Source of the DNA: a cyanobacterium endosymbiont of Epithemia clementina EcSB
Lineage (GTDB): Bacteria; Cyanobacteriota; Cyanobacteriia; Cyanobacteriales; Microcystaceae
DNA: 64,000 bases
Reading direction: 5' to 3'
Assembly: GCF_029919255.1 (NCBI RefSeq)
Contig: NZ_CP123991.1
Span: 489,110 to 553,109 of the forward strand
The translations under genes were made by a program, and so were the position numbers. Below are positions 47,944 through 51,931 of the stretch, one piece after another; positions within the stretch are counted from its first letter, which is position 1, and each line of letters starts with the position of its first letter. The notes beneath the pieces are model-generated. The model was not told the DNA's origin and did not search any database. It saw only the letters and a program-made list of their open reading frames with translations.

Positions 47944-48831
47944 TTAAGAGATGGCCATTTTAACTAGCTTAATAAGCTCAGTTTGATTTTGAGCTACTTT
48001 AACCTTAGCTTTTTCAAAACCATCTATGATGGACTTTACGGAGGAAATTTCTATTACTGACGAAGAGAGTTGAGCGGCCACAATTGTTTTAGCATCCCGA
48101 AAATTACGGTCTATAGGAGCATAAAGTCCAGCAATATAAGCAATCACAGGTTTTTTAATAGCTGAGGCAATGTATTCAACCGCACAGAGTTCAGCATGGC
48201 TATTGCCTCTTCCTAAAAGAACAATTACTTTAGTGGTACTGTCCTCTTCGAGTATCCGTAACCAATGCTCAAAATTTGAGCCAATAATGAAATCTTTGCC
48301 TAAACTAACAACGAGAGACTGACCTAACTTAGCTAGGGTTAATTCTCTAGCTACTTCATCAACTAGGCGATCACAACGACTAATAATCCCCACAGATCCC
48401 GGGCTATAAAAGGAATGCTCACATATCCCTAACCAAAACTGATTAGGAACAACTAATCCCTGACTGCCTGAGCCCAAGATAAAAGTCTGGTTAACTTTGG
48501 CTTTATGGAGAAGGTCAACCATATCTAGAGGAGGAACCCCTCCGGATATAATCACTAGTTGTCTAATTCCTGAATCCATTGCCTCTAAAGCTGCATCTAA
48601 GACTTTATAGGGGGGTGTAAAAATAACACTAATGTCGATGTTTTCGAACTCACTGACAGCTTGTTCTACTAAATTAAAAACTGGAATTCCATCTATCTTT
48701 AGACCGTCACCGTTTATACTAATTCCAGCTACGATATTCATCCCAAAAGCTTTCATTTGTTTTCCGTAGATAGTTCCCAGAGGAGTTGTAATTCCCTGGA
48801 TAATAACTTTACTATCAGCTTGCCATTTCAT
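47944..48831 (-). CDS. sucD: Succinyl-CoA synthetase alpha-subunit homologue, active-site His replaced
   Basis: The alpha subunit binds CoA and carries the phosphohistidine (His246 in E. coli). This 295-residue homologue has the overall fold (VIIQGITTPLGTIYGKQMKA, SVIFTPPYKVLDAALEAMDS, GSVGIISRC). The catalytic segment, normally APxGxRMGHAGAI, reads APIDRNFRDAKTI, so His is Asp246. The CoA-cysteine region, normally GPNCPG, reads GSGSQG. If translated, it cannot use the standard phosphohistidine mechanism. It follows sucC after 117 bp on the same strand. Either it is a protein losing function with the frame still open, or a repurposed subunit. Confidence 0.8.
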   Translation of the reverse strand: MKWQADSKVIIQGITTPLGTIYGKQMKAFGMNIVAGISINGDGLKIDGIPVFNLVEQAVSEFENIDISVIFTPPYKVLDAALEAMDSGIRQLVIISGGVPPLDMVDLLHKAKVNQTFILGSGSQGLVVPNQFWLGICEHSFYSPGSVGIISRCDRLVDEVARELTLAKLGQSLVVSLGKDFIIGSNFEHWLRILEEDSTTKVIVLLGRGNSHAELCAVEYIASAIKKPVIAYIAGLYAPIDRNFRDAKTIVAAQLSSSVIEISSVKSIIDGFEKAKVKVAQNQTELIKLVKMAIS

Positions 48832-48948
48832 AAATCAATGAGTTGTCGTGTGATTGAATTGCAATCTTAGTCAGATTAAATCAGAAAATTAAATCAGAAA
48901 ATAACCTAATATTTTATTAACTTTTGCCTAGACTGGGGTGAGGATAGC

Positions 48949-50223
48949 TTATTTTTTGGGAGCCTTAGCTAAAGAAACTGTTGTAGTGATCGCTTGTCCT
49001 AAATCCTCAGTCAAGTTAATCTCTAATCCAGAAAGACTTTCTTTAATTGGGTCAAGATCGCCCCCGAGCAAACGAACTACTAAAGATGGTAGTTTCGTAA
49101 CTTGGGACAGATGATTTTGAAGTTGACCATCCTGTTGATGCTCAAGGGAGTTAGCTCTAGTGGGTCTTGGAAAAAGGTCTTCACGGAAGAATTTTATCTC
49201 GCGTTTCAGATAAGGTTGAAAATAATCAGCAATTCCCTTTGCGATTACTTCGGAAGTCTCAGGACTACCCAAAATATTTATTAACAGAACCTTTATATGA
49301 GTTGACTTAATGGCTTGTTCTAAGGCGATAGTCAACTGCTCGGCAAAAGAGATTAATCCTTCCTGTTCGTTGAGCATCCAGCCACAGGCAGGATTACCTT
49401 GTTCATGAACTAACAGCTCCCAACTAGTAATGGTCAGTCCCCAGCCATTACTGATGATACCGATATTACCTTCTCCTGGGGTAGCTTTAATTACACAAAC
49501 TTGAGGAAGATTTAAAGGTTGAGGGATAACAGGTTCGAATACTATTGACGAAGTTTCTAATTTAGAGGATGTAAGTAATTCTACTAAATCTCGATGGCGA
49601 GACAAAGCTGAATCGTTAACCGCAATTTTTCCATCGAGGGCCATAACTTCTCCGGTTGGACTCACCGCCAAAGGATTGATCTCAATCGAATCTAAATCCT
49701 TTTCCCAAAAAATCTGGTACATCTTTTCAAGAATGGAACTCACTGTCTGGATTAGTTCCCCTTGGAGTCCCATTTTTACGGCTAAACGGCGGGCATAAAA
49801 GGGCGAAAAGTCGCTATCAACTACCACTTTTTCCATATGCTCGAGGAGAGTTTCCACATCAATTCCTCCTTTGGGTGAACCAAGCAAAACTGGACGCTGA
49901 AGTTTATAATCAAGCAGAACCGAAAGAAAAAACTCAGATTTGGTATCGTAGCGAGCTTCTGCCAGAATAACTTCTGGATATTCTCCTAAAATTGCCAGAC
50001 TAAAAATTGCTTGGGCAGCTACGATTGCATCGATCGTATTTTCCACAAAACGAATGCCCCCGGCTTTTCCACGACCTCCAGAACGGACTTGTGACTTTAA
50101 GACGACAGGATAAGGAATATGAAGGTGTTTTATTTCACTGAGATTAACGATAGGTTGTGAGGGTAAAATAGGAATACCCACTCGATGAAAAAGTTCTTTA
50201 GCCTGATATTCAAGTAAATCCAT
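48949..50223 (-). CDS. sucC: Succinyl-CoA synthetase beta-subunit homologue
   Basis: 424 residues from MDLLEYQAKELFHRVGIPIL, which is the family N-terminus. The open frame extends upstream to 50316, but those 31 residues are unlike SucC. The ATP-grasp domain shows VVLKSQVRSGGRGKAGGIRF (~27-46) and DLDSIEINPLAVSPTGEVMALDGK (~190-213). The C-terminal ligase domain is present (GEGNIGIISNGWGLT), but the usual Gly-rich segment after it reads WMLNEQEG. A C-terminal tail beyond the domain (~360-424) is less conserved. With sucD it should convert succinyl-CoA to succinate with nucleotide phosphorylation; the sucD lesion questions this. Confidence 0.82.
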   Translation of the reverse strand: MDLLEYQAKELFHRVGIPILPSQPIVNLSEIKHLHIPYPVVLKSQVRSGGRGKAGGIRFVENTIDAIVAAQAIFSLAILGEYPEVILAEARYDTKSEFFLSVLLDYKLQRPVLLGSPKGGIDVETLLEHMEKVVVDSDFSPFYARRLAVKMGLQGELIQTVSSILEKMYQIFWEKDLDSIEINPLAVSPTGEVMALDGKIAVNDSALSRHRDLVELLTSSKLETSSIVFEPVIPQPLNLPQVCVIKATPGEGNIGIISNGWGLTITSWELLVHEQGNPACGWMLNEQEGLISFAEQLTIALEQAIKSTHIKVLLINILGSPETSEVIAKGIADYFQPYLKREIKFFREDLFPRPTRANSLEHQQDGQLQNHLSQVTKLPSLVVRLLGGDLDPIKESLSGLEINLTEDLGQAITTTVSLAKAPKK

Positions 50224-50339
50224 GACACTTGTAATCTGAGAAGTATAGTTTTTAGAAAAATAGGGGAACATCTCAGTTAGTATCCTACATTCTCCGAATC
50301 TGGAATTTATCATCAAATTCTAAAGAAAAAAGTAAAAAG

Positions 50340-51213: not shown

Positions 51214-51931
51214 TTATTGTCTATTCATATCGAACAGCATTTGATTTTGTAAGCATCCTTGAAATAGTTCATTGAGGAGTTTTTTTCTTGTTGGTTTATC
51301 AAGTTGCGCTGATAAATATCTTTCTAAACGAAGAATTATCCACCATTTTCCGATCTGAATTGGCTTTGAAAGTTGTCCTAATTGACTGGTAGACAGAATC
51401 CGCGATATTTGCGGGTGAGGGACATTTAAATGCACTGGACCAATTAATCCTCCTGTTTGGGCTTTGGCATCTTCAGAATATCGTCTAGCTAGTTTCTCAA
51501 AAGAGCTTTCTCCCTCTTGAATACGAAAATAAAATTCTTGGGCGATTCCAGGATTTTTTGTCCTAATCAGGAAATAAACCACCCGATCAAGTTTTCCTTT
51601 ACATTGCCAAAGATAGTCTTCGAGTTAATGATCCCATATTGATTATTTTAACTTTTCGATTTTTAAATCCCGTACTTTCAGGTGAACTAGCTATTCACGG
51701 GTCATCCCCCATTTGTCAATCCAAGCTTGGACTTTATCCTTATCAGTTAGTTTTTTGATAAAATTACTGTTGCTCTAAGAGTGTTTCTTCTGGGCTACAC
51801 TTAATAGTGGTGATTACCTCGTCAATTATTAGCTCTCCAGCTAACTGGGGTAATAGTTAATATCGGGTTAATAAGAGATGTAAATGTCGGTCTAGAATAT
51901 TTCAATTACTAATCTGTAAGATAACACTCAT
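51214..51931 (-). pseudogene. Decayed PpiC-type peptidyl-prolyl isomerase gene
   Basis: The last 122 codons (51214-51582) are open and encode a parvulin domain (IQEGESSFEKLARRYSEDAK, GGLIGPVHLNVPHPQIS, LNELFQGCLQNQM). Upstream, the minus strand continues the same gene with stops and shifts back to ATG 51929-51931: MSVILQISN; LLPQLAGELIIDEVITTIKC; SPEETLLEQQ; KSSP-type linker debris; then GNVKENLIGW. PpiC-like proteins of this type accompany ABC exporters in cyanobacteria, consistent with the neighbouring ABC ruin. The open 3' part could still give a fragment, but no start signal was identified. Confidence 0.8.

Follow-up and report, generated by a model that had tools for sequence, protein, structure and literature searches.

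The sucCD locus

The window, a stretch of 64,000 nucleotides from the genome of the cyanobacterial endosymbiont of Epithemia clementina, carries on its minus strand two adjacent genes that encode homologues of the subunits of succinyl-CoA synthetase (SCS), with sucC upstream of sucD (Table 1). The first-pass annotation of this DNA had described the sucD frame as fully open over 295 codons and the sucC frame alongside it as also open, and our analyses agreed on both counts. Translation of sucC probably starts at the ATG at position 50223 rather than at the TTG at 50316. Elsewhere in the window, a short open frame at 51214-51582 (-) resembled a fragment of a parvulin-type peptidyl-prolyl isomerase and may be what is left of a once longer gene.

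Table 1. Coordinates of the sucCD-like genes and of altered sites in the window.
Feature	Position	Strand	Remarks
sucD-like gene (SCS alpha homologue)	47944..48831	-	295 aa, without phosphohistidine
Former phosphohistidine loop APIDRNFRDAKTI, residues 238-250	48082..48120	-	
Codon 246, GAT (Asp)	48094..48096	-	Column of E. coli His246
Codon 208	48208..48210	-	Arg instead of catalytic Glu208
SRCDR, residues 151-155 (start of power helix)	48367..48381	-	Canonical SRSGT; Cys153/Asp154
GSGSQG, residues 120-125	48457..48474	-	Canonical GPNCPG
sucC-like gene (SCS beta homologue)	48949..50223	-	424 aa; ATP-grasp residues all present, no GGGA phosphate loop

Missing catalytic residues in the alpha subunit

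In SCS, His246 of the alpha subunit is the phosphorylated catalytic carrier, stabilised by Glu208 of alpha and Glu197 of beta, and the phospho-His246 is proposed to move across to the nucleotide site in beta (PMC10342173). In the alignment of residues 238-250, the window SucD reads APIDRNFRDAKTI and the Thermus SCS alpha reads APKGKRMGHAGAI. Asp246, encoded by GAT, aligned without gaps to the column of E. coli His246, and GSGSQG stood in place of the CoA and active-site motif GPNCPG, both as the first-pass annotation had stated. We identified further losses beyond these. Glu208, the stabiliser of the phosphohistidine, was replaced by Arg in the window protein and by Gln, Arg or His across the clade to which it belongs (hereafter the Asp clade), the Ser153/Gly154 of the power-helix start SRSGT had become the Cys/Asp of SRCDR, and Lys42 had become Gly. 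Ser replaces the Cys123 of GPNCPG in many of the cyanobacterial SucD that have the His as well.

The SCS alpha fold was recovered in the predicted structure (pLDDT 89), which matched SCS alpha chains with TM scores of 0.87-0.90, the loop around residue 246 being poorly modelled (pLDDT 53-57). In addition, the N-terminal CoA_binding domain PF02629 was matched at 64.6 bits. The scores against two curated families fell short of their cut-offs (TIGR01019, 196.7 bits against 353.2; NF004230, 202.5 bits against 336), and the TIGR01019 cut-off was passed only by the early-branching L202 among the five cyanobacterial proteins tested. Descent from SucD was indicated by the nesting of the window protein within the cyanobacterial SucD on the tree described below and by its place in the same operon.

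Majumdar et al. (1991) reportedly dealt with replacing the phosphohistidine of the E. coli enzyme; our search of open-licence papers for an E. coli SCS half-reaction returned nothing. The genome gave a single TIGR01019 match, with no second, canonical SucD elsewhere, and no relocated phospho-acceptor His was conserved above 30% within the clade. With both the carrier and its stabiliser in alpha missing, and with no conserved His in their stead, the phosphohistidine relay is unable to operate by the established route. The annotation would still be roughly right if the pair slowly interconverted succinyl-CoA and succinate, or carried out only the half reaction of succinyl-CoA and phosphate to succinyl phosphate, and the retained fold and CoA-binding domain are consistent with such activity. 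We consider it improbable because His246, Glu208, Ser153/Gly154, Cys123 and the GGGA loop of beta have disappeared together, the residue lost at position 246 is the catalytic phosphate carrier (PMC10342173), and no other His in the clade is conserved.

The replacement residues were themselves conserved in the Asp clade: Asp246 in 32/35 proteins (91%), Gly122 in 35/35, Asp154 in 29/35, Asp158 in 26/35 and Gln208 in 23/35. Asn122 and Cys123 had changed along with His246, Glu208, Ser153/Gly154 and the beta GGGA loop. The conservation of Asp246 would be expected if this residue had taken over as the phosphoryl carrier, with an acyl phosphate in place of the phosphohistidine. This seems very improbable to us, as some clade members have Asn or Ser at the position and related lineages have Gln, Tyr or Glu, and as the helix-start residues that hold the phosphate have changed, with a further acidic residue now at one of these positions.

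Nucleotide site and phosphate loop of the beta subunit

The residues of the ATP-grasp domain that contact ATP and Mg (K46, G53, R54, E197, N199 and D213) were kept in 30/30 of the beta subunits of the Asp clade. The GGGA phosphate-binding loop was absent from the window SucC, which reads LNEQEG. This loop was altered in essentially all cyanobacterial loci, even in most of the His-bearing SucCD, and was canonical only in L202 (genome G058), the sole cyanobacterial SucCD here to combine a canonical beta loop with a TIGR01019 score above the cut-off.

Distribution and age of the loss

Our collection comprised 219 loci from cyanobacteria, with about 180 different proteins among them, from which 182 rows, including two references, were aligned. 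Position 246 was His in 104 rows, the Thermus reference included, and another residue in 74 (Asp in 41, Gln in 17, Asn in 8, and Glu, Tyr, Ser, Ile or Pro in the remainder), the rest being gapped. A SucD of this kind was present in 117 of the 291 genomes drawn from the class, and the His was absent in a Synechocystis genome and in Anabaena, Picosynechococcus, Crocosphaera-type and Hydrococcus genomes. No report of a His-less cyanobacterial SucCD was found in the open-licence papers searched.

The alignment to free-living relatives and diatom endosymbionts that the first-pass annotation had proposed showed Asp246 to be common to both. It was shared by every relative in the genus, free-living ones included, and by almost every member of the family that has a SucD; sucD was absent altogether from other lineages of the family (G013, G019 and G021). 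The nearest named relatives of the window SucD were those of the endosymbionts of Rhopalodia gibberula (90% identity) and Epithemia turgida (88%). All four diatom-endosymbiont genomes carried Asp246 in an open sucD, and the unicellular cyanobacterium SU2 (5.2 Mb, 73% identity), which we took as free-living on account of its genome size, carried it too. A sequencing error at Asp246 was excluded by the occurrence of the residue in the four endosymbiont genomes and in free-living relatives.

A tree was built from 94 diverse proteins with the trait columns left out. The distribution of His and non-His residues on it needed six changes, at least five of which were forced by well-supported branches. 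The heterocystous Nostocaceae formed a separate Gln246 group beside a His-bearing sister (L081), and position 246 was Tyr in Trichodesmium versus His in its Okeania relatives. Three His-bearing sequences (L028, L061 and L068) were nested among His-less ones, and some reversals are therefore possible. A formal test of whether His246 and Glu208 disappear jointly had five independent pairs on supported branches, two of them informative, which is too few for significance. Together, the tree and a distribution that includes free-living relatives indicated that the Asp of the window protein is much older than the symbiosis.

Comparison of a Trichodesmium metagenome-assembled genome (L101) with Okeania (L105) showed a recent change of His246 to Tyr with Glu208 still in place, and L101 may represent an early stage of the same loss.

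Purifying selection on both subunits

Estimates of dN/dS for both subunits, also proposed in the first-pass annotation, were obtained as pairwise omega values by NG86 between the diatom endosymbionts and SU2, with codon-bootstrap limits. Omega was about 0.17 for the two genes (0.13-0.29 for sucD and 0.16-0.20 for sucC), with whole-gene bootstrap upper limits of no more than 0.5, indicating purifying selection; intact neighbouring genes gave 0.09-0.34. Within sucC, the ATP-grasp half had an omega of 0.05-0.08 versus 0.24-0.37 for the C-terminal half, and nothing else in the pair was under such tight constraint as the ATP-grasp site. In canonical SCS beta, compared between E. coli and Thermus, 0.55 of the C-terminal half and 0.46 of the ATP-grasp half were alike, whereas the order was reversed in the cyanobacterial beta subunits (0.33-0.41 versus 0.62-0.70). 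This pattern points to a function that would still need the nucleotide site and would no longer need the phosphohistidine site.

The sucC gene adjoined sucD in 61 of 67 loci. The neighbourhoods of these 67 loci gave no hint of function, sucC being the only widely conserved neighbour; a short-chain dehydrogenase gene lay upstream in 22/67.

These data also bear on whether sucD is an early pseudogene on its way out of a decaying endosymbiont genome. Other genes of this genome are broken, sdhA included, and sucD is missing from the three family lineages mentioned above, as decay would predict. However, the presence of the Asp in free-living relatives refutes decay as the cause of the His loss, omega was about 0.17 in all comparisons, and sucD is open in all four diatom endosymbionts. 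On the evidence of the free-living relatives and of omega we rejected this explanation, and its probability is close to nil.

Comparison with related enzymes

The window pair shares with canonical SCS (SucCD; TIGR01019/TIGR01016; E. coli, Thermus and mitochondrial SUCLG1) two subunits, the order of sucC upstream of sucD, the alpha and beta folds, the ATP-grasp site and the N-terminal CoA_binding domain, but it lacks the phosphohistidine, Glu208, GPNCPG and the beta GGGA loop. The His-bearing cyanobacterial SucCD (e.g., Leptolyngbyaceae L048, Oscillatoriales) are orthologous to it by tree and operon and share the alteration of the GGGA loop in beta and the variability at position 42; unlike the window pair they have kept His246 and mostly Glu208, with a TIGR01019 score of 305 bits. 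Citryl-CoA synthetase/ATP-citrate lyase and ADP-forming acetate-CoA ligase have the same superfamily fold, with only 19-25% identity to the window SucD in structure matches, and these enzymes use the same phosphohistidine.

The SucCD of the heterocystous Nostocaceae (Gln246, e.g., Anabaena subtropica L096) resemble the window pair in having lost both His246 and Glu208, each replaced by Gln, in a change that lies apart from that of the Asp clade on the tree. They differ in having kept more of the alpha catalytic domain, and in their beta subunits Asp213 has become Asn in 15/16 and Gly53 has been lost in 14/16. With the ATP-grasp site kept in the Asp clade and altered in the Gln group, the two largest groups without the His have diverged along distinct paths. 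Asp213 binds Mg, and given its replacement in the Gln group, use of ATP is not a property common to every His-less pair. In L096, L110 and L162-L188, all heterocystous, the Gln246/Gln208 SucD and a SucC with Asp213Asn and a degraded GGRGKAGG loop are still encoded in one operon, and from their residues neither half of the active site appears functional.

Metabolic context of the pair

Outside the window, an sdhA-like gene (G000:C1:211881-213052; locus L233:1489-2729) is disrupted by a stop codon and a change of frame. Its homologues contained stops in the diatom endosymbionts G003 and G005, had no full match in a further diatom endosymbiont, G002, and were whole in the relatives G001 and G006. 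The sucCD pair has outlived the loss of succinate dehydrogenase and is therefore not retained for turning the TCA cycle. The first-pass annotation had offered two explanations for the missing His, loss of this branch of the TCA cycle or another role for the subunit. The cycle is indeed damaged in the endosymbiont, through the broken sdhA, but this damage is not the cause of the missing His, as the same Asp occurs in free-living relatives of about 5 Mb and in the family and is conserved in 32/35 proteins. Another role is the better supported of the two, by the purifying selection, the retained operon, the ATP-grasp site and a knock-out phenotype in an Asp-bearing genus.

Cyanobacteria are described as being without 2-oxoglutarate dehydrogenase (PMC5160925). 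At G000:C1:342972 to approximately 346000 (L226 and L227), also outside the window, an open gene for an aldehyde dehydrogenase (best model: succinic semialdehyde dehydrogenase) is followed by one for an open thiamine-diphosphate enzyme, which NCBIfam names acetolactate synthase (865 bits). The two are probably ssaD-ogdA, the arrangement of the bypass from 2-oxoglutarate to succinate, the name ogdA being one that we infer.

Asp246 was found in two genomes whose plasmids match those of Picosynechococcus PCC 7117 and PCC 7003 at 100%. In Synechococcus PCC 7002, deletion of sucCD made growth under 2% CO2 sparging impossible and lowered succinate and malate, to about 60% under illumination and about 40% in darkness, a phenotype that its authors read as the loss of succinyl-CoA synthase (PMC5160925). 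If PCC 7002 has the Asp like its two congeners, this phenotype is that of a His-less pair. The drop in succinate and malate could mean that some succinyl-CoA-consuming activity persists, which is the remaining point in favour of the residual SCS activity judged improbable above (PMC5160925).

The same phenotype (PMC5160925) is also consistent with the main rival to our interpretation, in which the pair has become a new catalyst whose beta ATP-grasp site directly forms an acyl phosphate or some other phosphoryl product from a substrate other than succinate and without a His carrier; Asp246, Asp154 and Asp158 are possibly a new polar site. The very strong constraint on the ATP-grasp half (omega 0.05), the intactness of every ATP/Mg residue in 30/30 subunits and the acidic residues that have become fixed near the former phosphate site would fit such an enzyme. 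We regard it as rather unlikely because the C-terminal half of beta, which lines the other site, evolves fast, no pathway gene is linked to a pair whose sole widely conserved neighbour is sucC itself, and beta Asp213 has also been lost in the Gln clade.

An ancient SucCD variant

Ancestry, operon and fold all identify the pair as SucCD. It should nevertheless not be classed as a functional succinyl-CoA synthetase, because it lacks His246, Glu208, SRSGT, GPNCPG and the beta GGGA loop and falls short of the curated family scores. Our preferred reading, to which we assign a probability of roughly 0.6, is that the pair at 47944-50223 (-) is an ancient and still selected SucCD variant that is no longer a phosphohistidine-dependent SCS and that has kept its nucleotide site. 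Under this preferred reading the alpha and beta subunits would still form a complex that binds ATP/ADP in beta, and a CoA-like ligand may be bound in the N-terminal domain of alpha. Phosphate would not be ferried between the two sites, and no ATP would be made from succinyl-CoA. The most likely role of such a complex, devoid of SCS activity, would be a regulatory or ligand-sensing one, with the nucleotide-bound pseudoenzyme acting in carbon metabolism, which we take to be the commonest outcome.

With the PCC 7002 delta-sucCD phenotype as a hint, we tentatively speculate that several cyanobacterial lineages independently made SucCD phosphohistidine-free, and that in the clade of the window pair the ATP-grasp site may drive a new reaction or a regulatory switch, dependent on both ATP and acyl-CoA, of importance for growth when CO2 is high. 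In reviews, Synechocystis is shown with a functional SucCD that is assumed to produce succinyl-CoA (PMC7133116, PMC9855186). Should the complex not be an SCS, this step would be wrongly drawn for the His-less organisms, and the published delta-sucCD phenotype would need a new explanation. The repeated loss of one catalytic residue from a gene that is kept would also provide natural replicates for how enzymes change role.
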